Source: Luteimonas endophytica (GTDB lineage Bacteria; Pseudomonadota; Gammaproteobacteria; Xanthomonadales; Xanthomonadaceae). From it: a DNA stretch of 64,000 bases. How positions within the stretch are numbered: the stretch's first letter is position 1; each line of letters opens with the position of its first letter. Location of the stretch: the NCBI RefSeq assembly GCF_029887875.1, contig NZ_JARXRM010000024.1, positions 1-64,000 on the forward strand, given 5' to 3'. This document shows, piece after piece, positions 10,367 through 32,065 of this stretch. The notes below the pieces were generated by a model. The model ran no database searches. It worked only from the letters and a program-made list of their open reading frames with translations, and was not told the DNA's origin. The position numbers and the translations under genes were made by a program.

Positions 10367-11494
10367 CTACGGCGTGGTCGGGTAGACGATCAGGATCTCC
10401 AGGTCGGCGTCGCCGTCCTGCTGCAGGGCGTGGGTGCTGCCGGGGCGGGTGAGCATGGCGTCGCCGGGGCCGACCTGGTGCACTTCGCCATCGAGCACGA
10501 ACCGGCCGCGCCCGGACAGGACGTAGTACACCTCGTCCTTGTGGTGCGGATGCAGGCCGATGCCGGCGCCGGGGTGCAGCACGCGCTTGCGGAACGCGAA
10601 CGGCAGCCCTTCGGCATCGGCGAAGTACGGCCACGCGGTGGTCGGACCGGGGCCGCCGTGCGGGCCGGGCTGCGACACGGCGGCCACATCGGCCGCGCGC
10701 AGCACCCCGGAAGGCCGCGGCTGGGACGCCCGGAGCGCCAACGCATCCGGCGGCGCGCCGCAGTCCGTATCGCGTATCACGTGCGGGGCGAGTTCGGGAT
10801 CCAGGCGCTTCCACTCGCGCACGACCAGGCATGCCACCTGGGTCGCGCCGGCGGTGCTGAAATGGGTGTCGTCGGCCTTGCCCTGCGCCGGCACGTGCAT
10901 GAAGTACGGCTTCGAGGCCTCATCGCCCAGGGCGCGCAGCCAGTCGCGGCTGGCGGTATCCAGGTCGATCAGCGCGAGCGATTCGCGGCGAGCCAGCGTC
11001 CGTACCGCCTCGCTGTAGCGCACGTGCGTGTCCAGCAGCGCGCCGAAGTCGAACAACCGCCGCGCCACCGGGGTGATGAGGATGGGCGTGGCTCCGCGCT
11101 CGCGCGCCAGCGCCACGTAGCGCATCAGCCACTGCGGATAGGCGCGCTCGGGTTCGTTGTAGCGGGCGGGATCCTCGAACTTGGCGTCGTTGTGACCGAA
11201 CTGGACCAGCAGCACGTCGCCTTCGCGCAACCCCTCGGCGACGGGATCCAGCAAGCCCTGCTCGATGAAGCTGCGGGCGCTGCGGCCGCCGCGCGCATGG
11301 TTGCGGACCTCGTACGCGCCCGGATCGAGATACCCCTGCAGGACCTGGCCCCAGCCGGCTTGCGGCGCCCGCTCGGGGCCGTACTCGGCGGCCGTGGAGT
11401 CGCCGGCGATGAACACCCGCCGCGGCGCGGCTTCGGCGTGCGCGCCCAGCGCCGCGCACGCCGCCAGCAGCAGCCCCGGCAGCCACCGCCGCAT
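10367..11494 (-). CDS. Exported SGNH acetylesterase fused to a C-terminal cupin
   Basis: 375 residues with a clear signal peptide (MRRWLPGLLLAACAALGAHA). Residues 24-240 match rhamnogalacturonan acetylesterase-type SGNH/GDSL hydrolases: nucleophile Ser33 in AGDSTA, Asn102 in FGHND, and the Asp208/His211 pair in DDTH. Residues about 285-375 form a single cupin with the first metal motif HPHHKDE (His315, His317, Glu321) and His355 in PGSTH. The esterase half would remove acetyl groups from pectin. The cupin could be a sugar-binding module, or a KdgF-like enzyme that opens the ring of unsaturated galacturonate, which would suit the adjacent kduD/kduI but would place that step in the periplasm. 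Frames upstream of 11494 lack coding character. Confidence 0.8.
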   Translation of the reverse strand: MRRWLPGLLLAACAALGAHAEAAPRRVFIAGDSTAAEYGPERAPQAGWGQVLQGYLDPGAYEVRNHARGGRSARSFIEQGLLDPVAEGLREGDVLLVQFGHNDAKFEDPARYNEPERAYPQWLMRYVALARERGATPILITPVARRLFDFGALLDTHVRYSEAVRTLARRESLALIDLDTASRDWLRALGDEASKPYFMHVPAQGKADDTHFSTAGATQVACLVVREWKRLDPELAPHVIRDTDCGAPPDALALRASQPRPSGVLRAADVAAVSQPGPHGGPGPTTAWPYFADAEGLPFAFRKRVLHPGAGIGLHPHHKDEVYYVLSGRGRFVLDGEVHQVGPGDAMLTRPGSTHALQQDGDADLEILIVYPTTP

Positions 11495-11601: not shown

Positions 11602-12360
11602 TCAGCGCGCCAGCCAGCCGCCGTCCACGGGCAGCACCGCGCCGTGGACGTAGTCGGACGCCGACGAGGACAGGAACACCGCGGCGCCGCCCAGGTCCGC
11701 GGGCTCGCCCCAGCGGCCGGCCGGGATGCGGTCCAGGATCGCCGCGTTGCGGGCCTGGTCGGTGCGCAGCGCCTCGGTGTTGTTGGTGGCGAAGTAGCCC
11801 GGCGCGATGGCGTTGACGTTGATGCCCTTGCCCGCCCATTCGTTGGCCAACAGCCGGGTCACGCCGAGCACCGCGGACTTGCTGGCGGTGTAGGAGGCCA
11901 CGCGGATGCCGCCCTGGAAGGACAGCATCGAGGCGATGTTGATGATCTTGCCGCCACGCTTGCCCGCTACCCAGCCGCGCGCCACCGCCTGCGATAGAAA
12001 GAACAGGGTTTTCAGGTTCACGCCCATCACCGCATCCCAGTCGTCCTCGGTGAAGTCGAGGGCGTCGTTGCGGCGGATGGTCCCAGCGTTGTTGACCAGG
12101 ATATCGATGCCGCCGAGGCGCTCGCGCGCCGCGTCCACCACGCCCTGCACCGGCGCGTGGGTGTCGAGCGAAGCCTCGATCCAGGCGAAGCGGCGGCCGA
12201 GCGCGGCCACCCGCGCTTCGGTTTCGGCCGGGGCGCTGCGGCCGACCGCGGCCACGTCGGCGCCCGCTTCGGCCAGCGCCACCGCGATGCCCTGGCCCAG
12301 GCCGGTATTTGCGCCGGTAACGAGCGCCACGCGGCCGCCGAGGTCGAAAGGGTGGGTCAT
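11602..12360 (-). CDS. kduD: 2-dehydro-3-deoxy-D-gluconate 5-dehydrogenase (KduD)
   Basis: A 252-residue classical short-chain dehydrogenase. It reduces 2,5-diketo-3-deoxygluconate to 2-keto-3-deoxygluconate (KDG) in the cytoplasm, the step after KduI in unsaturated-galacturonate breakdown. The Rossmann motif is TGANTGLGQG (15-24), the structural NNAG is at 90-93, and the catalytic residues are Asn115, Ser144, Tyr157 and Lys161 (YTASK). The chain matches the KduD family in length and in TIRRNDALDF and PAGRWGEPADLGGAAVFL. It follows kduI on the same strand after 163 bases and precedes the acetylesterase-cupin gene. Activity on 2-deoxygluconate is also known in this family. Confidence 0.9.
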   Translation of the reverse strand: MTHPFDLGGRVALVTGANTGLGQGIAVALAEAGADVAAVGRSAPAETEARVAALGRRFAWIEASLDTHAPVQGVVDAARERLGGIDILVNNAGTIRRNDALDFTEDDWDAVMGVNLKTLFFLSQAVARGWVAGKRGGKIINIASMLSFQGGIRVASYTASKSAVLGVTRLLANEWAGKGINVNAIAPGYFATNNTEALRTDQARNAAILDRIPAGRWGEPADLGGAAVFLSSSASDYVHGAVLPVDGGWLAR

Positions 12361-12523: not shown

Positions 12524-13372
12524 CTATTTCAGCTGGCAGATGTCGAGTACGTGCATGTCGGCGTAGTCGAGATTCTCGCCGCCCATCGCCCAGATGAAAC
12601 AGTAGTTGCTGGTGCCCGACCCCATGTGGATCGACCAGGGCGGCGACACCACCGCCTCGCCGTCGGCGACCACGATGTGGCGCTGCGCGTCGGGCCGGCC
12701 CATGAAGTGGTAGACGCGGTCGTTCTGGCCCAGGTCGAAGTAGAAATACACCTCGGAGCGGCGGTCGTGCAGGTGCGGCGGCATGGTGTTCCAGACGCTG
12801 CCCGGCTTGAGGATGGTCAGGCCGAGCAGCAGCTGCGAGGACTTGCAGGTGGCCGGCACGATGTACTGGTAGATGGTGCGCTCGTTGCTGGTCTCCAGCG
12901 CGCCGCGCTCGAGCGGCACGGCCTGGTCGATCGAGATGTGCCTGACCTCGTAGCGCGCATGCGCCGGGGTCGAGGCCAGGTAGAAGCGCGCCGGGCTGCC
13001 GGCGTCGTCGGAGGCGAAGTCGACCTGCTCGCTGCCCATCGGCACGTACAGGCCGTCCTTGGGCGCCAGCGCGTGCGCGGTGCCGTCGACGGTGACGGTG
13101 CCGGCGCCGCTGCCGACGTTGACGATGCCCAGCTCGCGCCGTTCCAGGAATGCATGGCCCTTGGCCGACTCCGGCTCGGTCTGCCTGGGCAGCGACACGG
13201 TCTTGCCGACCGGGGCGGCACCGCCGATCACGAATCGCTCGTAGTGGGTGTAGCTCAGCCGCACCTCGTCGGCGGCGAACAGGCCGTCGAGCAGGTACAG
13301 ATCGCGCAGTTCGTCGTTGCTGATCCCGTGCATCACGCCTGGGTGGGTGGCGTGGTAGGTCTTCTGGTACAT
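12524..13372 (-). CDS. kduI: 5-dehydro-4-deoxy-D-glucuronate isomerase (KduI)
   Basis: 282 residues, the full KduI length. The enzyme isomerises the keto-uronate from unsaturated galacturonate (5-dehydro-4-deoxyglucuronate) to 2,5-diketo-3-deoxygluconate. The zinc-binding cupin site is visible: His200, His202 and Glu207 in [13 protein letters not shown], with His249 in [10 protein letters not shown]. The N-terminus [12 protein letters not shown] and the C-terminus [11 protein letters not shown] are characteristic. It is the first gene of a leftward unit that continues with kduD. A candidate LacI-type operator lies 74 bases upstream. Confidence 0.93.
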
Positions 13373-13632: not shown

Positions 13633-14691
13633 TCAGCCCGGCGGCTGGCAGGAGTCGCGGACGATCAGGTGCGGGCGGACGCTGGCGACCGGCCGCGCGG
13701 CCGCGCCCTCCTCGGCCTGGATCAGCATCGCCGCGGCGACCCGGCCGGTGTCGCGGGTGTCGCGGCGCACCGAGGTCAGCGGCGGCCACAGCCGCGAGGC
13801 CAGCGGGCTGTCGTCGTAGCCGACCACCGACAGCTGCCGCGGGATGCTGATGCCGGCGCGCAGCGCCACCCGGTACACGCCCGCGGCCATCTCGTCGTTG
13901 CCGCAGAAGATCGCGGTCGGGCGGCGCTTGCCGGACAGCAGCTTCTCGGCCGCCGCCACGCCGGATTCGAAGGTGTAGCCCGCCTCCACGATGCGCGCCT
14001 TCGGCAGCTCGATGCCGCGCCTGGCCAGCGCGTCGACGAAGCCGCCGGTGCGCTCGATCGCCGAGCGGTAGCTGGCCGGGCCGGTGATCAGGGCGATGTC
14101 GCGATGGCCCAGGGTCTGCAGGTAGTCGGCGGCCTCGGCGGCGCCATCGCGGTCGTGGGTGATGACCATGCGCGAGTGGTCGTCCATCGCCACCGCGGCG
14201 ATGCGGGTATAGCGGCAGCCGATCTCGTCGAGCATGTCGGCCAGCGCCTGGTCCTCGGACACGCGCGGCACCAGCATCACCCCGTGCAGCTTCTGCTGCT
14301 GCACGAAGCGGCGCACCCCGTCGATGTAGCCCGGGCTGCGGCTGTCGCAGGGGTGCACCACCAGTTCGAACCCGGAGCCGCGCAGCGCGTCCAGCGCGCC
14401 GTACTGCATGTTGACGATGAACTGGGCGGTGGGATTGTCGTAGACCATGCCGATCAGGAACGAGCGCCGGAACGCCAGCCCGCGTGCCATGGGATCGGGC
14501 GAGTAGCCGACTTCGCGCATCAGCGCCTCGACCTTCTCGCGGGTGTCCTTCCGCACCAGCGGCGAATGGTTGATGATCCGCGACACCGTTTTCTTCGACA
14601 CCCCGGCCAGGCGCGCGATGTCGTTGATCGTCGCCGCCCGCGTGGGTCCCTGCGACGTGGCGCCCTGCTTCGATGTCTTGGATACGGGCAT
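13633..14691 (-). CDS. LacI-family transcriptional regulator, likely repressor of the pectin locus
   Basis: 352 residues. The N-terminal helix-turn-helix reads ATINDIARLAGVSKKTVSRI (about 20-39) and is followed by the hinge helix segment MREVGYSPDPMARGLAFRRS. The remainder is a periplasmic-binding-protein-like sensor domain (IGMVYDNPTAQ, HRDIALITGP, AIFCGNDEMAAG, VVGYDDSPLASRLWPPLTSVR). The ATG at 14691 directly precedes the basic arm; coding character is lost further upstream. It sits between kduI and the GH43 gene, and a shared palindrome occurs near most promoters of the locus, so it is the natural candidate to bind it. The inducer may be an unsaturated uronate or KDG, by analogy with KdgR-type control; this is inference. 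Confidence 0.88.
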   Translation of the reverse strand: MPVSKTSKQGATSQGPTRAATINDIARLAGVSKKTVSRIINHSPLVRKDTREKVEALMREVGYSPDPMARGLAFRRSFLIGMVYDNPTAQFIVNMQYGALDALRGSGFELVVHPCDSRSPGYIDGVRRFVQQQKLHGVMLVPRVSEDQALADMLDEIGCRYTRIAAVAMDDHSRMVITHDRDGAAEAADYLQTLGHRDIALITGPASYRSAIERTGGFVDALARRGIELPKARIVEAGYTFESGVAAAEKLLSGKRRPTAIFCGNDEMAAGVYRVALRAGISIPRQLSVVGYDDSPLASRLWPPLTSVRRDTRDTGRVAAAMLIQAEEGAAARPVASVRPHLIVRDSCQPPG

Positions 14692-14744
14692 TCGGCGGGT
14701 TCCGTGCCGGTGGAAGTGCAAGCGTTCGATTCTAGCCCTTCGCC

Positions 14745-16885: not shown

Positions 16886-18169
16886 TCAGGCCCGGAACAG
16901 CGCCGGCAGCCAGAGCGACAGCTGCGGAAACACGGTGACCACCAGCAGCACCGCCAGCGCGGCCAGCCAGAACGGCCAGATCGACCTGAGCGACTCGCCG
17001 ATGCCGATCTTGCCGATCGCCGCACCGACGAACAGCACCGAACCCACCGGCGGCGTGACCAGGCCGATGCCGCCGGCCAGCACCAGCACCACCCCGAAGT
17101 GCAGCGGGTCCACGCCGAAGGCCTTCGCCACCGGCAGGAAGATCGGCGTGCAGATCAGGATCATCGGCGCCAGGTCCATGAAGGTCCCCAGCAGCAGCAG
17201 GATCGCCGCGATCACCAGCAGCACCGTGTAGCGGTTGTCGGCGAGCGCGCCGATCAGCTCCACCGCCGCCGCGGGCACCTCCAGGTAGGCCAGCAGCCAG
17301 CCGAACAGCGCCGCGGTGGCGATCACGAACAGGATCACCCCGGTGGTGCGCGCCGCGTGCGCCACCGCCTGGCGGAACGCCGCCCAGTCGAGCATCCGGT
17401 AGATCGCCACCGTCACCAGCAGCGCGTAGACCACCGCCACCGCCGCGCTCTCCACCGCGGTGAACACGCCGGCGCGGATGCCGATGAAGATCAGCGCCAC
17501 CAGGCCCAGCCCCGGCAGCGCCGAGACCAGCCGCAGCAGCACCGCGCGCATCCCCGGGAACGCCTCCACCCCGTAGCCGCGCCGGCGCGCCACCAGATAG
17601 CCGGTGAACATCAGCGTCAGCGTCATCAGCAGCGCCGGGAGGATGCCGGCGGCGAACAGGTCGGCGATGGAGATGCCGCCGCCGACCGCGGCCGAATACA
17701 GGATCAGGTTGTGCGAGGGCGGCACCAGCAGCGCCACCAGCGCGCCGGTGATGCTCACGTTGACCGCGAAGTCGCGGTCGTAGCCGCGCTTGACCATCTG
17801 CGGGATCATGGTGCCGCCGACCGCCGACACGTCGGCGATCGCCGAGCCCGACACGCCGCCGAAGAACAGCGACGAGAGAATGCTGACTTGGCCCAGGCCG
17901 CCGCGGATGCGCCCGACCAGCGCCGCCGCCAGCGCGATCAGGCGCTCGGAGATGCCGCCGCGCATCATGATCTCGCCGGCGAAGATGAACAGCGGAATCG
18001 CGATCAGCGAGGCGGTGCCGATGCCGGCGCCGACCTGCTGCACCAGCACCACCGAGGGCAGGTCCAGGTACAGCAGCGCCAGCAGCGAGGCGGCGGCGAG
18101 CGCATAGGCCACCGGCACGCCGATCAGCAGCAGCAGGATGAAGCCGAAGAACAGCAGGGCGATCGCCAT
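16886..18169 (-). CDS. dctM: TRAP transporter large permease, DctM type
   Basis: 427 residues with about twelve hydrophobic segments, full length for the DctM ion-coupled permease of tripartite ATP-independent periplasmic transporters. Family signatures include VQQVGAGIGTASLIAIPLF, FFGGVSGSAIADVSAVGG and LVPPSHNLILYS near the middle, and GTFMDLAPMILICTPIFLP towards the end. It begins one base after the dctQ stop, which indicates coupled translation. With DctP and DctQ it would import a carboxylated compound using a sodium or proton gradient; in this context a uronate or unsaturated galacturonate is the likely substrate, as for other TRAP systems in pectin loci. Confidence 0.92.
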   Translation of the reverse strand: MAIALLFFGFILLLLIGVPVAYALAAASLLALLYLDLPSVVLVQQVGAGIGTASLIAIPLFIFAGEIMMRGGISERLIALAAALVGRIRGGLGQVSILSSLFFGGVSGSAIADVSAVGGTMIPQMVKRGYDRDFAVNVSITGALVALLVPPSHNLILYSAAVGGGISIADLFAAGILPALLMTLTLMFTGYLVARRRGYGVEAFPGMRAVLLRLVSALPGLGLVALIFIGIRAGVFTAVESAAVAVVYALLVTVAIYRMLDWAAFRQAVAHAARTTGVILFVIATAALFGWLLAYLEVPAAAVELIGALADNRYTVLLVIAAILLLLGTFMDLAPMILICTPIFLPVAKAFGVDPLHFGVVLVLAGGIGLVTPPVGSVLFVGAAIGKIGIGESLRSIWPFWLAALAVLLVVTVFPQLSLWLPALFRA

Positions 18170-18697: not shown

Positions 18698-19687
18698 TCA
18701 GGCGAGTGCGCGGATCTGGCGGAACAGCGGCGCGATGTCCGGCTTGGCGAGGTATTCGTCGAGCAGCGGCGCGGCCGCGGCGCGGAAGGCGGCGTGGTCG
18801 ACGTCGTTGAAGCGCACGCCGTGGGCGGCGACCGCCTCGCGCGCGGCGCTCTCCGAGGCGTCCCAGAGTTCGCGCATCACCGCCACCGACGCACGCGCGG
18901 TCTCGACCAGCAGCTCGCGGTCGGACGGTGCCAGCGCGTCCAGGCTGCGGCGCGAGATCAGCAGGATGTCGGGCGCGTAGGAATGTTCGCTCTCCGACCA
19001 GTAGCCGGCCGTCTCGAAATGACGGCTGGAGTGGAAGCTGCGCATGTTGTTCTCGGCGCCATCGATCAGCCGCGTTTCCAGCGCCGAGAACACCGCGCCG
19101 AACGCCAGCGGCGTCGGGTTGGCGCCGAACAGCCGCAGCAGCCGGATGAAGATGTCCGAGAGTGGCACCCGGAACTTCAGGCCGCGCATGTCGGCGGGGC
19201 TGCGCAACGCGCGCCGGGTGTTGTAGAAACAGCGCGCGCCGGAGTCGTACACCGCCAGCCCCATCAGGCCCCGCGCGGCGAAGCCGTCCAGCACCGCGCG
19301 GCCGACCCCGCCATCGAGTGCGCGGCGCAGATGCGCCACCGAGTCGAACACGTACGGCAGGCACAGCGCCTCGGTCAGCGGGAAGGCGTTGTTGAGCGCG
19401 CCGCTGTAGACCCGGGTGATGTCGATGGCGCCGAAGCGCGCCATGTCGATGGCCTCCGATTCGCGCCCGAGCTGGCCGGAGTGGTACAGGCGGATGCGCA
19501 GGCGGCCGCCGGTCTCGCGCTCGAGGACCTGGCCGATCCACTTCACCGCCTCGACGGTGGGGTAGCCGTCGACGTGCACGTCGGTGGCGGTGAGCCGCCC
19601 CGGCGCACCCGCCTGCGCGGACCGCGGCAGCAGCGGCGCGCAGGCAGCGCCGAGTCCGGCGGCAAGGAAGCGGCGCCTGTCGATCAC
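18698..19687 (-). CDS. dctP: TRAP transporter periplasmic solute-binding protein, DctP type
   Basis: 329 residues, starting at a GTG whose GTGA overlaps the stop of the preceding hydratase gene. The N-terminus IDRRRFLAAGLGAACAPLLP has a twin-arginine motif, so export may go through Tat. The mature part is a standard DctP fold with LYHSGQLGRESEAIDMARFG, the ligand-binding arginine region GLKFRVPLSDIF, and NPTPLAFGAVFSALETRLIDGAENN. The conserved Arg in FRVP is expected to bind the substrate carboxylate. It captures the acidic sugar released by pectin breakdown; the exact ligand cannot be read from the sequence. Confidence 0.9.
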   Translation of the reverse strand: MIDRRRFLAAGLGAACAPLLPRSAQAGAPGRLTATDVHVDGYPTVEAVKWIGQVLERETGGRLRIRLYHSGQLGRESEAIDMARFGAIDITRVYSGALNNAFPLTEALCLPYVFDSVAHLRRALDGGVGRAVLDGFAARGLMGLAVYDSGARCFYNTRRALRSPADMRGLKFRVPLSDIFIRLLRLFGANPTPLAFGAVFSALETRLIDGAENNMRSFHSSRHFETAGYWSESEHSYAPDILLISRRSLDALAPSDRELLVETARASVAVMRELWDASESAAREAVAAHGVRFNDVDHAAFRAAAAPLLDEYLAKPDIAPLFRQIRALA

Positions 19688-20568
19688 GTCCGCTCCCGCG
19701 CCGCCACCGCGCGCCCCTCGATCGTGCCGCACTGCTCGAACTCCACCCGGGCGGCCTGTCCGACTGCGATGTCGTGGATGCCGGTGGCATTGCCGGTCGC
19801 GATCAGCTCGCCGCGGCGCAGCGGGCGGCCGCGCCGGGCCGAGCGCGACAGCGCGAACGCATACGCCGCCAGCAGCCCGCCCGGCAGGGTGGTGGCGCCG
19901 CCGCGGCCGACGCATTCTTCCTCGATCCAGGTGGAAGCCACCAGGTCCGCCTCGGCGATGCCGCGCCAGCCGTGGATCTCGCGGCCCATCACCAACCCGT
20001 TGTTGTTGCCGAAATCGGAGACCACCACGCGCGGGCCGAGCGCATTGATGGTGGCCAGCGGGCTGCTGGCGATCTCGATGCCGGTGTGCAGGCTGGCGGG
20101 CAGCGCCGCGGCCTGCTCCGGGGTCCAGTCGGTCTGGTCCGGCGGCGCGTCCTCCAGCAGCCGCAGCACGTACTCGGCCTCGACCGCGGCGAAGCCCCCG
20201 GAAAACACCGGCAGCTCCACCGGCCGCGCCGCGTCCTCGACCTGCCACAGGTTGCGCCGGAAGATCGGCCCGAGCAGGCGCTCGTCGCCGGAGCCGTCGC
20301 GGCGCGCGGGTTGGATGTAGCCGACCTTCCAGCCCACCACCTCGTCCGGCCACCGCGCGATCGCCAGGTCCTGCACCGCGTAGGCCGCCACCAGGTCCGC
20401 GGGAATCTCGCCGGGGAACGCCGGCAGCGCCGCCCCCGCCAGCCGCGCCCGCACGAACGCGCCGGCGATCGCCTCCGCGTCCTGTCCCTGGCGCGGAGCG
20501 TTCGCCGCGCTGTCGTTGCCGTTGCTCAAGTCCGTGTTCTCCCTGCCTGCCGATGTTGCGGTGCACAT
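19684..20568 (-). CDS. FAH-superfamily 2-keto-4-pentenoate hydratase-like enzyme
   Basis: 294 residues. I start at the ATG at 20568 because GGAGGG lies seven bases upstream and because a start at 20631 would place the operator-like site inside the gene. The body resembles MhpD-type hydratases: GWKVGYIQPARR, LLGPIFRRN, the metal-ligand region FAAVEAEYVLRL, and GNATGIHDIAVGQAARVEF. The FAH superfamily also contains 2,4-diketo-3-deoxy-acid hydrolases of sugar oxidation pathways in Xanthomonas. As the first gene of the operon with dctPQM, it probably processes the imported acid or a keto-deoxy sugar acid, but its substrate is unknown. It overlaps dctP by four bases. Confidence 0.75.
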   Translation of the reverse strand: MCTATSAGRENTDLSNGNDSAANAPRQGQDAEAIAGAFVRARLAGAALPAFPGEIPADLVAAYAVQDLAIARWPDEVVGWKVGYIQPARRDGSGDERLLGPIFRRNLWQVEDAARPVELPVFSGGFAAVEAEYVLRLLEDAPPDQTDWTPEQAAALPASLHTGIEIASSPLATINALGPRVVVSDFGNNNGLVMGREIHGWRGIAEADLVASTWIEEECVGRGGATTLPGGLLAAYAFALSRSARRGRPLRRGELIATGNATGIHDIAVGQAARVEFEQCGTIEGRAVAARERT

Positions 20569-20593
20569 GGCGCCGCCCTCCGATGTTCGTATA

Positions 20594-20610
20594 TGGTAAA
20601 CCGGTGTCAT
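20594..20610. promoter_or_regulatory. Candidate LacI-type operator between divergent pectin operons
   Basis: TGGTAAACCGGTGTCAT lies in the 107 bases between the hydratase-TRAP operon (minus) and the pectate-lyase operon (plus). It is the clearest copy of the recurrent motif and could govern both directions. Confidence 0.6.
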
Positions 20611-20675
20611 TTTCAATGTGCAGTGCGGCATAAGCTGGCGGCACGGACGGCGGTTCCACGATCCGGAGGGAGACC

Positions 20676-22025
20676 ATGCAGTCGATCACACCAGCGCCGG
20701 CGATGCTGCCGCGCGTCCTCGCCATGCTGTTCGCGGCCGCGCTGCTCGCGCCGGCGCACGCGGCGCCCGCCGCCGACCGGGCGCTGGCGTTCCCCGGGGC
20801 GCAGGGCTGGGCCGCGCACACGCCGGGCGGGCGTGGCGGGCGGATCATCCGCGTCACCACCCTCGACGCCAAGGGGCCCGGCTCGTTCACCGAGGCGGTG
20901 CAGGCCACCGGCCCGCGCATCGTGGTGTTCGAAGTCGGCGGCGTGATCGATCTCGGGGTCGAGACGGTCCGCATCGACGAGCCCTTCCTGACCATCGCCG
21001 GGCAGACCGCGCCCCAGCCCGGCATCACCCTGATCCGCGGCGGCCTGGTGATCGCCGCCCACGACGTGGTGGTGCGCCACATCCGCGTGCGCCCCGGCGA
21101 GGCCGGGCGGGCCAAGCGCGAAGGCCCCGACTTCGATGCCATCACCACGGTGCGCGGCGCCCGCGACGTGATCGTCGACCATTGTTCGCTGACCTGGGCC
21201 ACCGACGAGAACCTCTCCGCCTCGAGCACCCGTTTCGCCGGCGAGACCCCGGAGGAATGGCTGCGGAACGCATCGCGGCGGATCACCTTCAGCAACAACA
21301 TCCTCGCCGAGGGCCTGGCCGACTCGGTACACCCCAAGGGCGAGCACTCCAAGGGCTCGCTGATCCACGACCACGTCAACGACGTGCTGATCGTCGGCAA
21401 CCTGTACGCCCACAACATGGAGCGCAACCCGCTGTTTAAGGGCGGCGCCCGCGGCCAGGTGATCAACAACCTGATCTACAACCCCGGCCAGAAGGCGGTG
21501 CACTACAACCTGATCGCCGAGGAGTGGATCGGCCACCAGCCCTACCAACCCGGGCAGATGGTGCTGCGCGGCAACGTGATGCGCGCCGGCCCGGACACCG
21601 GCGAGCTGGCGTTCTTCATGCTCGGCGGTTCCGGCGACGTGGAACTGTACGCCGAGGACAACCTGGTGGTCGACCGCATCGGCGAACCGCTGCCGCAGAC
21701 CGGCCGCTACACCACGGCGCCGGCCGGGCTGGTCCGGCTGCGGCGGGCGCCGGACCTGCCGTTCGGCGTCGAGCCGCTGCCGGCGGCCCGGGTGCAGGAT
21801 GCGGTGATCGCCGACGCCGGCGCGCGCCCCTGGGACCGCGACCAGATCGACCGGCGCATCGTCGCCGACGTCATCGAGGCGCGCGGCGCGATCATCGACA
21901 GCGAGCGGGCGGTCGGCGGCTATCCCGACCATGCCCAGACCCGCCAGCCGTTCGTCGAGGCCGACTGGGACCTGGAGACCATGGAGCCGCTGCGCCCGCT
22001 GCCGCGCGGCGAACCGCTGCGCTAG
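20676..22025 (+). CDS. Exported pectate lyase, polysaccharide lyase family 1
   Basis: 449 residues with a signal peptide ending PAHAAP (about residue 29) and a strong GGAGGG ribosome site. It is a right-handed parallel beta-helix lyase of the PL1 type: AFPGAQGWAAHTPGGRGG at the start of the mature protein, AGQTAPQPGITLIRGG, and the calcium/catalytic face HCSLTWATDENLSA. It would cleave homogalacturonan by beta-elimination, releasing 4,5-unsaturated oligogalacturonides. These feed KduI/KduD/KdgK after uptake. It leads a rightward series with two esterases and a GH95 enzyme. The operator-like site at 20594-20610 is 66 bases upstream of its start. Confidence 0.88.
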   Translation: MQSITPAPAMLPRVLAMLFAAALLAPAHAAPAADRALAFPGAQGWAAHTPGGRGGRIIRVTTLDAKGPGSFTEAVQATGPRIVVFEVGGVIDLGVETVRIDEPFLTIAGQTAPQPGITLIRGGLVIAAHDVVVRHIRVRPGEAGRAKREGPDFDAITTVRGARDVIVDHCSLTWATDENLSASSTRFAGETPEEWLRNASRRITFSNNILAEGLADSVHPKGEHSKGSLIHDHVNDVLIVGNLYAHNMERNPLFKGGARGQVINNLIYNPGQKAVHYNLIAEEWIGHQPYQPGQMVLRGNVMRAGPDTGELAFFMLGGSGDVELYAEDNLVVDRIGEPLPQTGRYTTAPAGLVRLRRAPDLPFGVEPLPAARVQDAVIADAGARPWDRDQIDRRIVADVIEARGAIIDSERAVGGYPDHAQTRQPFVEADWDLETMEPLRPLPRGEPLR

Positions 22026-23117: not shown

Positions 23118-24751
23118 ACGGTTTCCCCCCGGGCTTTCTACAGCGGCCCCATGACCCGCATCGCCGCCGACTGCTCGGCGCGGCGGTCTCGGTGGCGGCC
23201 GCCGCCGCGCTGCCGGCGCCGGCGGCATTCGCGACCCCGGCGCGCACCACCACCGCGCGCACCCGCGGCGGCCGCATCGGCGGCGCGATCGAGCAGGACG
23301 TGCACGTGTTCCGCGGGGTGCCCTATGGCGCCGACACCGCCCCGCGCCGCTTCCAGCCGGGCCTGCCGGAGGCACCGTGGCGCGGCGTGCGCGACGCGCT
23401 GGCCTACGGCGCGCCGGCGCCGCAGCGCAGCGCCGCAGGCCCGGGCAGCGAGGACTGCCTGTTCCTCAACGTGTGGACCCCGGGCCTGCGCGACGGCGCC
23501 CGCCGCCCGGTCCTGGTCTACCTCCACGGCGGCGGCTTCGACAACGGCTCGGGCAGCGACCCGCTGTACGACGGCGGCAACCTGTGCCGGCGCGGCGACG
23601 TCGTGGTGGTGACGCTGAATCACCGGCTCAACGCCTTCGGCTATCTCTACCTGCGCGACCTCGGCGACGCGTCGCTCGCGCACTCGGGCAACGTCGGCCA
23701 GCTCGACCTGGTGCAGGCGCTGCGCTGGGTGGCCGAACACGCCGCCGAGTTCGGCGGCGACGCCGGCAACGTCACCCTGTTCGGGCAATCGGGGGGCGGC
23801 GCCAAGATCGCCACGCTGATGGCGATGCCGGCCGCGCGCGGCCTGTTCCATCGCGCCTGGACCATGAGCGGCCAGCAGGTGACCGCGGCCGGGCCGCGCG
23901 CGGCGACCCAGCGCGCGCAGCTGTTCCTCGACGCGCTCGCGATCGCGCCGGCCGATCTCGACCGGCTGCGCACCCTGCCGCTGCAGGCACTGCTCGATGC
24001 GCAGTCGGTGCGCGACCCGTCGCGGGTGGAGGACAGCAGCCTGTACTTCGGCCCGGTGGTCGATACCGTCTCGCTGCCGCGGCATCCGTTCTGGCCCGAT
24101 GCCCCGCCGCAGTCGGCGGACGTGCCGATGGTGATCGGCAACACCCGCGACGAGACCCGCGCCTTCCTAGGCGGCGACGCGGACAACTTCGCCCTGACCT
24201 GGGAGTCGCTGCCGGCGAAGCTGCGCACCCAGCAGTACGTCGACCTCGACCCGGGCGTGGTGGTCGCCGAGTACCGGCGGCTGTATCCCGACTACACCCC
24301 GTCGGAAGTGTTCTTCGCCGCCACCACCGCCGGGCGCTCCTGGCGCGGCGCGGTGGAGGAGGCGGAGGCGCGCGCGCGCCAGGCGCAGGGCGCCGCCCCG
24401 ACCTGGGCCTATCAGCTCGACTGGTACCCCGACACCGACGAGGGCCGGCGCCTGCGCGCGTTCCATACGCTCGACATCCCGCTGGTGTTCGACAACATCG
24501 CCCGACCGGGATCGCGGACCGGAACGGCAGCGGACGCGCGGCGGGTCGCCGACGCGATGAGCGGTGCGCTGCTCGCATTCGCGCGCGACGGCGACCCGCG
24601 CAGCGGCGCGACCGCCGGTTGGACGCCCTACTCGCTCGCGCGCCGCGAGACGATGGTCTTCGGCGCCGCCCCCCGGCTAGAGCACGATCCGCGCGGTGCC
24701 GAGCGTGCGCTGTACCAGCGCGCTCCGTTCATCCAGCGCGGCACGATGTAG
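23114..24751 (+). CDS. Exported type B carboxylesterase
   Basis: 545 residues, overlapping the previous stop in ATGA. HRRRLLGAAVSVAAAAALPA near residue 17 is a probable Tat signal. Type B carboxylesterase markers include VFRGVPYG, EDCLFLNVWTPG, YLHGGGFDNGSGSD (oxyanion hole), the nucleophile Ser in FGQSGGGAKIATLM, and the catalytic His in RAFHTLDIPLVFDN. The family cleaves carboxylic esters; in this operon it may act on feruloyl, acetyl or methyl esters of pectin, but the sequence does not say which. The following GH95 gene is 88 bases downstream and has its own ribosome site. Confidence 0.85.
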   Translation: MNGFPPGFLQRPHDPHRRRLLGAAVSVAAAAALPAPAAFATPARTTTARTRGGRIGGAIEQDVHVFRGVPYGADTAPRRFQPGLPEAPWRGVRDALAYGAPAPQRSAAGPGSEDCLFLNVWTPGLRDGARRPVLVYLHGGGFDNGSGSDPLYDGGNLCRRGDVVVVTLNHRLNAFGYLYLRDLGDASLAHSGNVGQLDLVQALRWVAEHAAEFGGDAGNVTLFGQSGGGAKIATLMAMPAARGLFHRAWTMSGQQVTAAGPRAATQRAQLFLDALAIAPADLDRLRTLPLQALLDAQSVRDPSRVEDSSLYFGPVVDTVSLPRHPFWPDAPPQSADVPMVIGNTRDETRAFLGGDADNFALTWESLPAKLRTQQYVDLDPGVVVAEYRRLYPDYTPSEVFFAATTAGRSWRGAVEEAEARARQAQGAAPTWAYQLDWYPDTDEGRRLRAFHTLDIPLVFDNIARPGSRTGTAADARRVADAMSGALLAFARDGDPRSGATAGWTPYSLARRETMVFGAAPRLEHDPRGAERALYQRAPFIQRGTM

Positions 24752-24839
24752 GGCGGCGATCCTGCCGGGCGGCTCGCCGATGCCCGCCCGCCTCTCGCCC
24801 GCCATCGGTCCACGACCACCGTTCCCAAGGAGGCCCGCG

Positions 24840-27215
24840 ATGCTCGATCTCTCCCGACGCCGGATGCTGCAGGCCGCGTGCGGTTCGGCGGCGCTCGGGC
24901 TGCTGCCGGCTGCGGCTGCGGCCGCGGCCGGCCGCGGCGAAGCGGGATTCGTGCCGATGACCCCGCAGGACCTGCAGCTGCGCTACCGGGTGCCCGCACG
25001 GCAATGGGTCGACGCACTGCCGCTGGGCAACGGCCGGATCGGCGCCATGGTCTGGGGCGGCACGGCCCGGGAGCGGCTGCAGCTCAACGAAGACACGCTG
25101 TTCGCCGGCGGTCCGCACGATGCGGTCAATCCCCGCGCGCGCGCGGCGCTGCCCGAGGTGCGCAGGCTGATCTTCGCCGGCCGCTACGCGGAGGCCGAGG
25201 CCCTGGCGTCGGACACCCTGATGGCGGTGCCGCTGCGGCAGATGCCGTACCAGGCGCCCGGCGACCTGTGGATCGACTTCGACGGCATCGACGATGTCGC
25301 CGGCTATTCGCGCACGCTCGACCTCGACACCGCGATCGCCAGCTCGCGCTTCACCGCCGGCCCGGCGACGCACGTGCGCGAAACGTTCGTCTCGGCGGTG
25401 GACCGGTGCGTGGTGATGCGGCTCGCATGCGATCGGCCCGGCGGACTGACCGGCCTGCTCTCGGCGACCTGCGACCTGGACCATACCGTGACCGCCTCGC
25501 CCGACGGGCTGTTGCTGGCCGGCCGCAACGGCAGCCGCCACGGCATCGCCGGCGCGCTGCGCTTCGCCGTGCGCACCCGCTTGCTGCAACGCGGCGGCCG
25601 CGCGGCGGTCCGCGACGGGCGGCTGCGTTTCGAAGGTGCGGACGAGATCGTGCTGATGATCGCGCTGGCCACCAGCCACGTGCGCTACGACGATGTGAGC
25701 GGCGACCCCGAAGCCATCACCCGCCACCAGATCGAAACCGCTGCCGCGCGCGGCTACGAGGCGCTGCGCAGCGAGCATGTCGCCGAACACCGGCGCCTGT
25801 TCCGCCGCGTCACGCTCGACCTGGGCCGCACCCCTGCCGCCGAGCGCCCCACGCACGAACGGGTGGAGCGGTTCGCGAGCGAGGACGACCCGGCGCTGGC
25901 GGCGCTGTATTTCCAGTACGGGCGCTACCTGCTGATCTCGAGCTCGCGGCCCGGGTCGCAACCGGCCAACCTGCAGGGCATCTGGAACGACCTGCAGGAC
26001 CCGCCGTGGTCGAGCAAGTGGACGCTCAACATCAACACCCAGATGAACTACTGGCCGGCCGAGGTCGGTGCGCTGCCCGAGTGCGTGGAACCGCTGGAAC
26101 GGATGGTGTTCGAGCTGGCCGAGGCCGGCGCGCGCACCGCGCGCCGGATGTACGGCGCCCCGGGGTGGGTGGTTCACCACAACACCGACCTGTGGCGGCA
26201 GACCGCGCCGATCGACGGCGCGCGCTTCGGCCTGTGGCCGATGGGTGGCGCCTGGCTGCTGCGACATCTCTGGGATCGCTGGGACTACGGCCGCGACCCC
26301 GGCTACCTGCGGCGGATCTATCCGCTGTTCCGCGGCGCGGTCGAGTTCTACCTGGCCTTCCTGGTCGAGGACCCGGCCACCGGCGAGCTGGTCACCAATC
26401 CTTCGCTGTCCCCCGAGAACCGGCACCCGCACGGCTCGTCGCTGTGCGCGGGGCCGGCGATGGACTCGCAGTTGCTGCGCGATCTGTTCGCCCAGTTCGC
26501 CGAGGCCGCGATGCGCCTGAAGGTCGATCGCGAGCTTGTCGAACGGGCGGACGCGGCCGCGGCGCGGCTGCCCGCCGACCGCATCGGCCGTGGCGGCCAG
26601 CTGCAGGAGTGGCGCCAGGACTGGGACCTCGACGCTCCGGAGCCGGATCATCGCCACGTCTCGCACCTGTATGCGTTGCACCCGGGGCACGCGATCAACG
26701 TGCGCGACACCCCAGGGTTGGCGGCCGCGGCGCGCACCTCGCTGCGGCTGCGCGGCGACGAGGCGACCGGCTGGGGCATCGGCTGGCGCATCAACCTGTG
26801 GGCGCGGCTGGGCGACGGGGCCCATGCCTACCGCGTGCTGGAGATGCTGCTCAGCCATGCGCGGACCTATCCCAATCTCTTCGATGCACACCCGCCGTTC
26901 CAGATCGACGGCAACTTCGGCGGTGCGGCGGGCATCGCCGAGATGGTGGTGCAGGACTGGGGCGGGGAGATCTTCCTGCTGCCGGCGCTGCCGCCGCGGT
27001 GGCCGAACGGGCGCTTCGAGGGCGCGCGCCTGCGCGGCGCCGCGCGACTGGACCTGGCGTGGCGCGACGGCGCGCTGGATTCGGCGCGGCTGACCAGCGA
27101 TCGCGGCGGCGAGTACCGCGTCTCGTGGCGCGGCAGCGCGCTGGCCGTCGTGCTGGAGGCCGGGGAACACGCGACGCTGCACCGGGGCGAAGACGGCGCG
27201 CTGCAGCGGGCATGA
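24840..27215 (+). CDS. Exported glycoside hydrolase family 95 (alpha-L-fucosidase/galactosidase type)
   Basis: 791 residues. The ATG at 24840 has a near-ideal AAGGAGG six bases upstream. SRRRMLQAACGSAALGLLP is a Tat-type signal. The N-terminal beta domain starts RQWVDALPLGNGRIGAMVWG and LQLNEDTLFAGGP, and the (alpha/alpha)6 barrel carries the expected GH95 active-site segments: NINTQMNYWPAEVG (the two Asn), LSPENRH (acid Glu) and PFQIDGNFGGAAGI (Asp). The family inverts alpha-1,2-L-fucosides or alpha-L-galactosides, both present in plant xyloglucan and rhamnogalacturonan I. It ends the rightward pectin operon. Confidence 0.9.
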   Translation: MLDLSRRRMLQAACGSAALGLLPAAAAAAAGRGEAGFVPMTPQDLQLRYRVPARQWVDALPLGNGRIGAMVWGGTARERLQLNEDTLFAGGPHDAVNPRARAALPEVRRLIFAGRYAEAEALASDTLMAVPLRQMPYQAPGDLWIDFDGIDDVAGYSRTLDLDTAIASSRFTAGPATHVRETFVSAVDRCVVMRLACDRPGGLTGLLSATCDLDHTVTASPDGLLLAGRNGSRHGIAGALRFAVRTRLLQRGGRAAVRDGRLRFEGADEIVLMIALATSHVRYDDVSGDPEAITRHQIETAAARGYEALRSEHVAEHRRLFRRVTLDLGRTPAAERPTHERVERFASEDDPALAALYFQYGRYLLISSSRPGSQPANLQGIWNDLQDPPWSSKWTLNINTQMNYWPAEVGALPECVEPLERMVFELAEAGARTARRMYGAPGWVVHHNTDLWRQTAPIDGARFGLWPMGGAWLLRHLWDRWDYGRDPGYLRRIYPLFRGAVEFYLAFLVEDPATGELVTNPSLSPENRHPHGSSLCAGPAMDSQLLRDLFAQFAEAAMRLKVDRELVERADAAAARLPADRIGRGGQLQEWRQDWDLDAPEPDHRHVSHLYALHPGHAINVRDTPGLAAAARTSLRLRGDEATGWGIGWRINLWARLGDGAHAYRVLEMLLSHARTYPNLFDAHPPFQIDGNFGGAAGIAEMVVQDWGGEIFLLPALPPRWPNGRFEGARLRGAARLDLAWRDGALDSARLTSDRGGEYRVSWRGSALAVVLEAGEHATLHRGEDGALQRA

Positions 27216-27242
27216 CCGCTGCGGTCCTGCCCCGCCGCGCGA

Positions 27243-27977
27243 TCAGCAGTCGTCGTCGGCGCCGGCCGCGTAGCGCAGGCCACGCGCCAGGTGCGCGCGG
27301 AACACCGGGTCGGCGTACAGGCCCGGGGCGTGCCCCAGGCCGGTGTACCAGCTGCGGCCACCGTCGAACTCCCGGCACCAGGCGATCGGGTGGTCCACGC
27401 CCATCGTGCCGCCCTCGTAGTCGCCGCTCGCCAGCGTCGCGATCAGCCGGACCCGGTCGCGCGGATCGCGCTTGAAGTTGTAGAACTCGTCGGTGACCCG
27501 CCAGGTCCCGTCCGCCGCTCCCGGCGGATCGACGAAGCGCACGCGCGCGGTCTGCAGTCCGGGCGGATGGCTCTCGAACCAGGCGCCGACCAGCTCGCCG
27601 TACCACGGCCAGCCGTGTTCGGTGTCCGCGGCCGAATGCACGCCCATGAAGCCGCCTCCCGCGCGCACGAACTGCTGCAGCGCGGCCTGTTGCGCCTCGT
27701 CGAGAACGTCGCCGGTGGTGTTGGCGAACACCACGGCGCGGTAGCGGGCCAGTTCCGCCGCGGTGAACCGCGCCGGATCCTCGGTATGCGCGAATCGCAG
27801 CCCGGCTTCGCCGGCCAGGCCGCGCAGCGTCTCCACCGCCTGCCCGATGGAGTCGTGCCGCCAGCCGCGCGTGGCGGTGAACACCAGCACCCGGGCCCCC
27901 GGGCCATCCCGCTCCGGCGCCGGGGAGGCCGCCATCGGCACCGCCGCGGACGCGGAGGCGGCGGCCAGGACGACCAT
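27243..27977 (-). CDS. ThuA-domain protein, probably exported
   Basis: About 244 residues from the ATG at 27977. That start gives a hydrophobic but uncharged beginning (MVVLAAASASAAVPMAA), while the in-frame codons before it encode RARRSTRF, so the true start may lie further upstream and overlap the receptor gene. The body is a ThuA-like, glutamine-amidotransferase-type fold: VLVFTATRGWRHDSIGQAVE, VVFANTTGDVLDEAQQAAL, GGGFMGVHSAADTEHGWPWY and DHPIAWCREFDGGRSWYTG. ThuA proteins occur in sugar-utilisation operons and in keto-sugar metabolism, but their chemistry is poorly known. It follows the TonB receptor on the same strand, so it is likely cotranscribed with it. Confidence 0.75.
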   Translation of the reverse strand: MVVLAAASASAAVPMAASPAPERDGPGARVLVFTATRGWRHDSIGQAVETLRGLAGEAGLRFAHTEDPARFTAAELARYRAVVFANTTGDVLDEAQQAALQQFVRAGGGFMGVHSAADTEHGWPWYGELVGAWFESHPPGLQTARVRFVDPPGAADGTWRVTDEFYNFKRDPRDRVRLIATLASGDYEGGTMGVDHPIAWCREFDGGRSWYTGLGHAPGLYADPVFRAHLARGLRYAAGADDDC

Positions 27978-28035
27978 GCCCGCGGCTGCGAACCGCGTGC
28001 TCCGCCGGGCCCGGGGGCCCGGCGGTGGCGGCCGC

Positions 28036-30840: not shown

Positions 30841-30927
30841 TGCATCCCCTCCTCTGGCGTCGTTCCGCTCTGTGTGGCGGTTCTTGACTGGGTGAACCCG
30901 CTTGCTATCGTGTGGTCTGCGGCCGGA

Positions 30928-30943
30928 ATGACACCGCTGGTCA
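30928..30943. promoter_or_regulatory. Candidate LacI-type operator between receptor and KDG kinase
   Basis: ATGACACCGCTGGTCA has TGAC/GTCA arms and carries ATGACACCG as at 16457. It is in the 196-base space between the divergent TonB receptor and kinase genes, where it could control both. Confidence 0.5.
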
Positions 30944-31036
30944 AAACCGTAGCAAAACTCCGTCGGCGAAGCATGCTGCGTTGCGGCAAGGCTTCCGGGC
31001 GGTCCCACGCGCCGGTCCCGCGGCATCGGAGACGAC

Positions 31037-32065
31037 ATGACCCAACGACGGATCCTCTGCTTCGGCGAGCTGCTGCTGCGGCTCGGCGCCCCCGGCCGCG
31101 AACGGCTGCTGCAGTCGCCGCGCTTCGACGTGCACGTGGGCGGGGCCGAGGCCAACGTGGCGGTGTCGCTGGCGCGCCTGGGGCATGCCGCCGCGCTCGC
31201 CGGTACGGTCTCCGACGATGCGCTCGGCGACGCCGCGCTTGGGGAGTTGCGCCGCCACGGCGTCGACACCGGCGCGGTGCGCCGCGCTGCGGGGCGCATG
31301 GGCCTCTACTTCCTGTCCACCGGTGCCGGGTTGCGCCCGAGCGAGGTGCTGTACGACCGCGCCGGCTCGGCGTTCGCCACGGCCCCGGCCACCGGCCACG
31401 ACTGGCCGGCGCTGCTGGAGGGCGTCGACTGCCTGCACCTGTCGGGGGTCACGCCCGCCCTCGGCCAACCTGCGGCCGAGGCGGCCATCGCCGCCGCGCG
31501 CGCCGGCCGCGCCGCCGGCGCGCTGGTGTCGTTCGACGGCAACTTCCGGCCGCGCCTGTGGGCCGCGTGGGACGGCGACCCGGCGGCGATCCTGCAGCAG
31601 CTGCTGGCGGAGGCCGACCTCGCCTTCGCCGACCACCGCGACATCGGCGTGGTGCTGGGCGAGAACCCCGCGGCCGCCGCGGACGACCACGAGACGCGCA
31701 TCGTCGCGGCCGCCGCCCGCGCCTTCGCCGCGTTTCCGCGGCTGCAGCGTATCGCCACCACGTTGCGGGTCCAGCACAGCGTCGACCGGCACTCGCTCGG
31801 CGCACTGATGGTGGCCCGCGGCGGCGGGGTGGAACGCGCGCCGGCGCGCCAGCTGGAGGGGATCGTCGACCGCATCGGCGCCGGCGACGCCTTCGCCGCC
31901 GGGGTGCTGCACGGCCTGCTCACCGGCATGGACGACCGCGGCGCGCTGCGCTTCGGGCTGGCCGCGGCCTGCCTCAAGCACGCCCAGCCGGGCGACGCGC
32001 ATCTGGCCTCGGCCGACGAGATCGCGGCCTGCGCGCGCGAGGAGCGCCTGGACGTCAGGCGCTGA
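31037..32065 (+). CDS. kdgK: PfkB-family 2-dehydro-3-deoxygluconokinase (KDG kinase)
   Basis: 342 residues with a GGAGACG ribosome site. The PfkB signatures are present: ILCFGELLLRLGAPG at the start, the glycine-rich substrate segment HVGGAEANVAVSLARLG, and the C-terminal DRIGAGDAFAAGVLHG with the catalytic Asp. LVSFDGNFRPRLW is the KDG-kinase form of the central motif. The enzyme phosphorylates 2-keto-3-deoxygluconate to KDPG, which an aldolase (not in this window) splits to pyruvate and glyceraldehyde 3-phosphate. It completes the KduI-KduD-KdgK route of the locus. A kinase for another 2-keto-3-deoxy sugar acid is the main alternative. Confidence 0.88.
   Translation: MTQRRILCFGELLLRLGAPGRERLLQSPRFDVHVGGAEANVAVSLARLGHAAALAGTVSDDALGDAALGELRRHGVDTGAVRRAAGRMGLYFLSTGAGLRPSEVLYDRAGSAFATAPATGHDWPALLEGVDCLHLSGVTPALGQPAAEAAIAAARAGRAAGALVSFDGNFRPRLWAAWDGDPAAILQQLLAEADLAFADHRDIGVVLGENPAAAADDHETRIVAAAARAFAAFPRLQRIATTLRVQHSVDRHSLGALMVARGGGVERAPARQLEGIVDRIGAGDAFAAGVLHGLLTGMDDRGALRFGLAAACLKHAQPGDAHLASADEIAACAREERLDVRR

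Follow-up and report, generated by a model that had tools for sequence, protein, structure and literature searches.

A probably exported cupin, often fused to a CE12-type esterase, is linked to the DHU operon in Lysobacterales

In Luteimonas endophytica, an SGNH acetylesterase carries a cupin at its C terminus, and both halves are encoded by one gene in a pectin cluster. The esterase is an ordinary enzyme of the CE12 type. The new part is the cupin, which represents an uncharacterised family of apparently exported proteins that is tied to the DHU operon (kduI or dhuI, together with kduD), and the fusion is common in Lysobacterales. Our tentative proposal is that the cupin handles uronates in the periplasm, working like KdgF without being KdgF, while tethered to a pectin deacetylase. 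Among the matches listed in searches of openly licensed PMC papers (CC0, CC BY, and CC BY-SA), we recognised no description of an SGNH-cupin fusion or of an exported pectin cupin.

The fusion gene lies in a pectin cluster

The window is the 64,000-nucleotide stretch that we analysed (contig NZ_JARXRM010000024.1, positions 1 to 64,000). The fusion is a 375-amino-acid open reading frame on its minus strand, from an ATG at 11494 to a stop codon at 10367-10369 (Table 1). The frame is open upstream as far as 11839, and the start that precedes the signal-peptide-like segment is the one at 11494. The two-domain frame is found in dozens of genomes, so chance is no concern.

The first-pass annotation had called the esterase exported. 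The signal-peptide-like start supports this, and the fusion protein is probably exported. We also considered a lipoprotein signal (Cys13 in LLAAC), but it is not general among relatives, so we favour plain export. Cys222 and Cys245 are invariant across 42 fused homologues and could form a disulfide, in keeping with export.

In order of transcription, the minus-strand genes are a hydratase-like gene, a TRAP transporter, a GH43 gene, a LacI-type regulator, kduI, kduD, and the esterase-cupin gene; kduI and kduD, noted before as its neighbours, are thus directly upstream of the fusion. Divergent from this cluster are a pectate lyase resembling PelZ and an esterase resembling PaeX (both named from NCBIfam matches below the cut-offs). 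Gene order is similar in most of the best 80 of at least 452 named loci. The hydratase-like gene, which perhaps provides a step of uronate catabolism, precedes the TRAP operon in many related clusters as well, among them cupin-less and some distant ones. After the pectin cluster come a GH95 gene, a ThuA-domain gene, and a TonB-dependent receptor (window 24696-31299).

Table 1. Features of the fusion gene and its neighbours, in window coordinates.
Feature	Position	Strand	Basis or remark
SGNH acetylesterase-cupin fusion gene, 375 aa	10367..11494	-	Pfam, alignment of homologues, model
Signal-peptide-like N-terminus, about residues 1-22	11429..11494	-	Hydrophobic stretch after MRRW; model helix 5-17
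CE12/RGAE-type SGNH domain, residues 25-236	10787..11422	-	Pfam; fold matches 1deo, 2o14
Ser33 nucleophile codon	11396..11398	-	Invariant in alignment
Asp208 to His211 (DDTH) codons	10862..10873	-	Invariant in alignment
Cupin domain, residues 262-375	10370..10711	-	Pfam, model; fold match 1o4t
Arg302-Lys303-Arg304	10583..10591	-	Both Arg invariant in cupin family; V/I in three KdgF compared
Motif 1 HPHHKDE, H315-E321	10532..10552	-	H315, D320, E321 invariant; H317 not
Motif 2 His355	10430..10432	-	His in 107/107 Lysobacterales-type rows, V in 6/6 distant
kduD, just upstream of esterase-cupin	11602..12360	-	TIGR01832, 397 bits
kduI	12524..13372	-	NF002091, 395 bits
LacI-type regulator	13633..14700	-	Pfam
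TRAP transporter large permease; small permease and binding protein next, to about 19700	16886..18169	-	NCBIfam, synteny
Hydratase-like gene	19684-20631	-	Only 20.6 bits to 2-keto-4-pentenoate hydratase; no Pfam match
PelZ-like pectate lyase	20676..22025	+	NCBIfam 395 bits, cut-off 840; no Pfam match at E 0.01

The esterase half is a CE12-type enzyme

Residues 31-216 match Lipase_GDSL_2 in Pfam (E = 1.2e-14). In a single-sequence search of the PDB, the solved relatives of this half were YxiM from Bacillus subtilis (2o14, E = 4.9e-24) and the rhamnogalacturonan acetylesterase (RGAE) of A. aculeatus (1deo, E = 8.9e-13). We modelled the protein with AlphaFold using a 42-row alignment of fused homologues (mean pLDDT 89.5); a single-sequence model was poor (pLDDT 58) and was set aside. 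The esterase half of the model matches YxiM with Z = 24.9 and RGAE with Z = 23.4 (2.6 Å over 211 residues). Across the 42 homologues, the GDS nucleophile Ser33, Asp208, and His211 are invariant, which confirms the intact catalytic set that had been read from the sequence, and the block III asparagine (Asn102) is nearly so. Given its family and these residues, the esterase half probably removes acetyl groups from pectin, either galacturonan or rhamnogalacturonan.

The two characterised enzymes share the SGNH fold, the catalytic serine, and the Asp-x-x-His motif with our protein, but no cupin has been described in either of them. Instead, YxiM bears an appended jelly-roll module, and its galactose-binding-like domain is thought to hold the esterase on pectin; appended carbohydrate-binding modules are known in CE12 enzymes (PMC9487903). 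Cupins are not mentioned in the main text of that review of SGNH enzymes. Given these precedents, we considered that the cupin might be a non-catalytic sugar-binding module that anchors the esterase on pectin, like YxiM's module. The conserved residues of the cupin and its distribution, described below, both bear on this idea.

Conserved residues of the cupin

The C-terminal half matches Cupin_2 (residues 305-371, E = 3e-17, 62.5 bits), and it has the double-stranded beta-helix and the motifs 1 and 2 that define the cupin superfamily, as judged from Pfam, the model, and the match to 1o4t. In this part of the model, ten-residue blocks have pLDDT of 93-98, except for the final block (85). The nearest solved cupin is TM1287 (1o4t, E = 5.6e-10 in the single-sequence PDB search), which the model matches with Z = 18.6 (1.6 Å over 112 residues, 30% identity); TM1459 matches with Z of about 15-16. 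Both metal-binding motifs of the first-pass annotation, HPHHKDE (315-321) and PGSTH (351-355), are present. His315, His317, Glu321, and His355 align with the His/His/Glu/His of TM1287, and H315, E321, and H355 are invariant in the 42-row alignment.

Our alignment and tree of the cupin family were built from 127 loci, of which 121 yielded a cupin row. We kept the 107 rows that were distinct and free of X and added 6 distant ones. The resulting 113 rows (91 fused, 15 stand-alone, 6 distant, and one broken record, L185) are the basis for the tallies that follow. Position 315 is His and position 321 is Glu in every row. The second metal-ligand histidine (position 317) is His in 49 rows, Asn in 32, Gln in 26, and Ile in 6; position 355 is His in 107 rows and Val in the six distant ones. 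So HPHHKDE is intact in our protein, yet it is not what the family keeps, and the first-pass annotation's metal motif does not hold as a family constant. The residues that are identical in 106 Lysobacterales-type rows (91 fused and 15 stand-alone) and the 6 distant rows are H279, R302, R304, H315, D320, E321, Y323, and Y324.

Variable metal ligands would fit a binding module that has lost its metal chemistry. But the invariant residues are His, Glu, Tyr, and Arg, not surface aromatics, and H315 and E321 are at sites of metal ligands in KdgF.

In the model, strands 299-306 and 311-316 are joined by a four-residue turn and form a hairpin. Judging from these strand limits rather than from coordinates, R302 should lie opposite H315 and R304 opposite residue 313, so both arginines should face the inner side of the barrel. 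A pair of inward arginines beside these His, Glu, and Tyr residues would be a fitting site for an acid sugar.

Alternatively, the cupin could use a metal to catalyse a different reaction on pectin products, for example as an oxidase, decarboxylase, epimerase, or mutarotase of the TM1287/TM1459 type. These are the nearest solved cupins, our protein has the full His/His/Glu/His set, and TM1287 has been referred to as a Mn protein in which oxalate is bound to the metal (PMC11433825). However, the second histidine varies within the family and the motif-2 histidine is lost in the distant members. TM1287 also has Ala and Met where our protein has R302 and R304, is not fused to an esterase, and has only a putative function (oxalate decarboxylase). 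Overall, we think that a different metal-dependent reaction is unlikely.

The cupin lacks the catalytic residues of KdgF

The first-pass annotation suggested a periplasmic KdgF, the enzyme that opens 4,5-unsaturated galacturonate. Catalysis by YeKdgF has been assigned to Asp100, Phe102, and Arg106, and the Asp100Ala mutant is inactive (PMC11381880). (Asp100 in the paper's numbering is D98 of the Yersinia sequence that we used, matched from context.) In a joint alignment, these three sites fall on L368, V370, and T374 of our protein. Across the 113 rows, the Asp site is Leu in 68, Phe in 25, Met in 9, Ile in 9, and Val in 2, with no acid in any row; the Phe site is never Phe; and the Arg site is Arg in just 11. 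The KdgF-type ligands (His, His, Gln/Glu, His) correspond to H315, H317, E321, and H355, of which the family varies at 317 and 355. Conversely, three KdgF sequences have V/V/V at position 302 and V/V/I at position 304.

Overall similarity to KdgF is limited to the shared cupin core: a profile comparison gave 92% probability across 61 columns. By profile search, 1o4t scored E = 6e-14 versus 6.3e-5 for KdgF, and the single-sequence PDB search with our protein listed no KdgF at E <= 0.1. (KdgF is also absent among the 50 structural matches listed, which carries no weight either way.) Furthermore, KdgF is a stand-alone protein without a signal peptide, while members of this family are fused or, where they stand alone, begin with a signal-peptide-like segment in 21 of 22 rows according to a hydrophobicity scan. 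(Two of the rows, L057 and L188, are the same gene, and the exception is G069.)

KdgF proteins (Yersinia 5FPX, Halomonas 5FQ0, and Bacteroides BeKdgF) are like our protein in being cupins tied to the catabolism of unsaturated uronates, and no other KdgF was found in the genome. But with Asp and Phe missing, Arg unconserved, R302, R304, and H279 instead, a signal-peptide-like start, and an esterase tether, we reject the cupin as a bona fide KdgF, and a true periplasmic orthologue is very improbable. What stands of the first-pass suggestion is the functional analogy and the linkage to the DHU pathway; membership in the KdgF family does not.

The cupin goes with the DHU operon, not with the esterase

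The first-pass annotation proposed a search for other SGNH-cupin fusions, and they turned out to be frequent. Among 199 relatives (including the genome itself), 51 have the cupin, fused in 39 and separate in 12. The weakest of these matches has E = 4e-53, with none further down to 1e-12, and one of the fusions (in G166) spans a run of N. We also scanned named genomes and inspected the best 80 of at least 452 confirmed relatives, nearly all of them titled Lysobacterales. In these 80 loci, the cupin is fused in 75 and stand-alone in 4, and L185 has pieces of the esterase in other frames. Fusions were seen in Xanthomonas, Stenotrophomonas, Pseudoxanthomonas, and Luteimonas, and those of Xanthomonas are mostly beside kduI/kduD. 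One contig titled Bacillus subtilis SK7B5 (L127, JAHREJ010000056.1) has a Stenotrophomonas-type pectin cluster and is probably contamination or mislabelled.

The separate copies keep the kdu or pectin setting. Ten of the 12 separate cupins are directly behind kduD, one (G073) follows kduD after an intervening dhuI-like gene, and one (G069) is elsewhere; the 11 behind kduD also have a signal-peptide-like start. A phylum-wide draw of 398 genomes gave 10 with the cupin (E <= 1e-15), including six distant ones at about 40% identity, and in all six the cupin is a separate protein with an export-like start. In five of the six, it has kduD and further pectin genes as neighbours, along with kduI in three cases, and three of the six adjoin a pectate lyase gene; in the sixth genome (G453) we saw no kdu or pectin neighbour. 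Because separate copies keep this setting, we conclude that the cupin goes with the DHU operon and not with the esterase. The separate cupins behind kduD or next to a pectate lyase also argue against the binding module, and this explanation seems to us rather unlikely, if less so than a different metal-dependent reaction.

Of the 199 relatives, 61 have kduI, and 46 have both kduI and the cupin. In four of the five genomes with the cupin but no kduI (G010, G035, G073, and G079), a dhuI-like gene is beside the cupin. The fifth (G149) has no dhuI-like gene in its locus, which ends at a contig edge within kduD. The enzymes KduI and DhuI catalyse the same step without being homologous (PMC12838403), and one or the other gene is present in 50 of the 51 cupin-positive relatives.

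In loci L158, L138, L112, L060, and L059, an RpiB/LacAB-like (dhuI-like) gene separates kduD from the cupin or esterase-cupin gene; kduI was not detected in G079 or G073. DhuI-like genes of this kind are found in 22 of the best 80 of at least 452 named loci, some of which have kduI too. For one cluster type, 12 of 41 strains are reported to have a cupin gene called KdgF with kduD on one side and dhuI on the other (PMC12838403), whereas in the loci examined here the cupin comes after dhuI.

In a cupin tree based on few columns, all 15 stand-alone rows group with 19 fused rows, 17 of which are same-genus fusions. Support is 90/87 for this 34-row group and 98/81 for 33 of the rows. With this grouping, refusion and loss of the esterase both fit the history of the fusion.

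KdgF and related enzymes in these genomes

In the cytoplasm, the unsaturated monomer is usually made or opened by KdgF, GH88/105, and PL22. In the source genome, which is 99.99% complete, the sole single-sequence match to KdgF has E = 0.98 and the KdgF profile finds nothing at E <= 1e-4, so no stand-alone kdgF was found in the whole genome either, as had been noted for the window. The profile search works, since it finds KdgF in 47 of the 398 phylum-wide genomes. In the source genome, searches also found no GH88/105 at E <= 0.001 and no PL22 at E <= 1e-6. Among the 199 relatives, GH88/105 is present in 16, including 7 of the 51 with the cupin; PL22 gave one weak match among the 199 and none in 14 control genomes. 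Because the usual cytoplasmic makers were not found, it is plausible that monomer release and ring opening, spontaneous or helped, take place outside the cytoplasm.

Strong KdgF matches (E <= 1e-35) were found in none of the 51 cupin-positive relatives. The order's strong KdgF genes are in G121, G155, and G161, all of which are cupin-negative. (In G121 (L213) and G161 (L215), KdgF is away from the kduI-kduD operon and has another reductase, 30-31% to KduD, as its neighbour.) The avoidance has p = 0.013 with strong matches only, or p = 0.011 if G015 and G135 are counted, by a statistic that ignores shared ancestry. In the phylum-wide draw, KdgF at E <= 1e-15 is found in 0 of 10 cupin-positive genomes versus 47 of all 398, which has a chance of 0.28. 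The contrast is statistically weak and suggestive only.

We also considered total avoidance, but this fails, as one cupin-positive Luteimonas relative, G015 (L039), encodes a divergent protein resembling KdgF (E = 3.1e-10) in which the Asp/Phe/Arg ending is intact. Therefore the cupin and KdgF can coexist. A protein similar to that of G015 is found in G187, which is cupin-negative, and in G135 (L040, also cupin-negative) a kduI has part of a KdgF-like gene at a distance of about 40 bases. Weaker matches to the KdgF profile in the cupin-positive G095 and G068 are without the Asp/Phe/Arg pattern.

The first-pass annotation stated that the pathway needs a KdgF-type cupin. This is too strong: the ring of the unsaturated uronate also opens non-enzymatically, and in every cluster type except one, fewer than half of the strains have kdgF (PMC12838403). 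Among our relatives, 15 of the 61 with kduI are without the cupin, and because 12 of these 15 (G135 among them) also have no strong KdgF, the ring-opening step looks dispensable. As cupin-less genomes with kduI exist and opening is spontaneous, the pathway can run without either cupin.

For a KdgF-like role, the first-pass annotation had set the adverse outcome as a separate intact kdgF together with a pocket that cannot hold the uronate. A separate kdgF was not found, and the pocket could perhaps accommodate a uronate, because the conserved positions include R302 and R304, which may line it.

Proposed role

We tentatively favour a periplasmic cupin that handles uronates in the manner of KdgF, from a family of its own, and that is tethered to a pectin deacetylase. 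Ser33, Asp208, and His211 of the exported protein would deacetylate pectin, as expected from the family. The cupin would bind a pectin-derived uronate in the periplasm, with Arg302 and Arg304 for the carboxylate, and His315, Glu321, and Tyr323 would act on the bound uronate. The likeliest reaction would be the opening or tautomerisation of 4,5-unsaturated galacturonate to DHU, before uptake. DHU would then be imported by the TRAP transporter and passed to KduI and KduD. Counting against this proposal are the missing catalytic residues of KdgF, the two variable metal-ligand positions, the KdgF-like protein of G015, and the 7 cupin-positive relatives with a GH88/105.

A broader version, which we consider doubtful, is that the cytoplasmic KdgF is replaced in Lysobacterales, and in some Pseudomonadota beyond them, by an exported cupin from a different family that has arginines and a His/Glu/Tyr centre. 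Ring opening would then be periplasmic, often tethered to the esterase, and linear DHU would be what the TRAP transporter imports.

Implications

The Xanthomonas genes XCC0154, XAC0171, and XOO0265 are named rhamnogalacturonan acetylesterase (PMC5132194, PMC5003339). They are probably the same gene as the fusion, since Xanthomonas loci carry it, although these tags were linked by name and not by sequence match. The word cupin is absent from the main texts of both papers, so in these texts the likely Xanthomonas counterparts are named for the esterase only.

The short stand-alone cupins make the function easy to probe. If the cupin acts on unsaturated uronates, then one step of the pectin pathway would be periplasmic in these bacteria, the species that is transported would be known, and the KdgF reaction would have been solved by a second kind of cupin.
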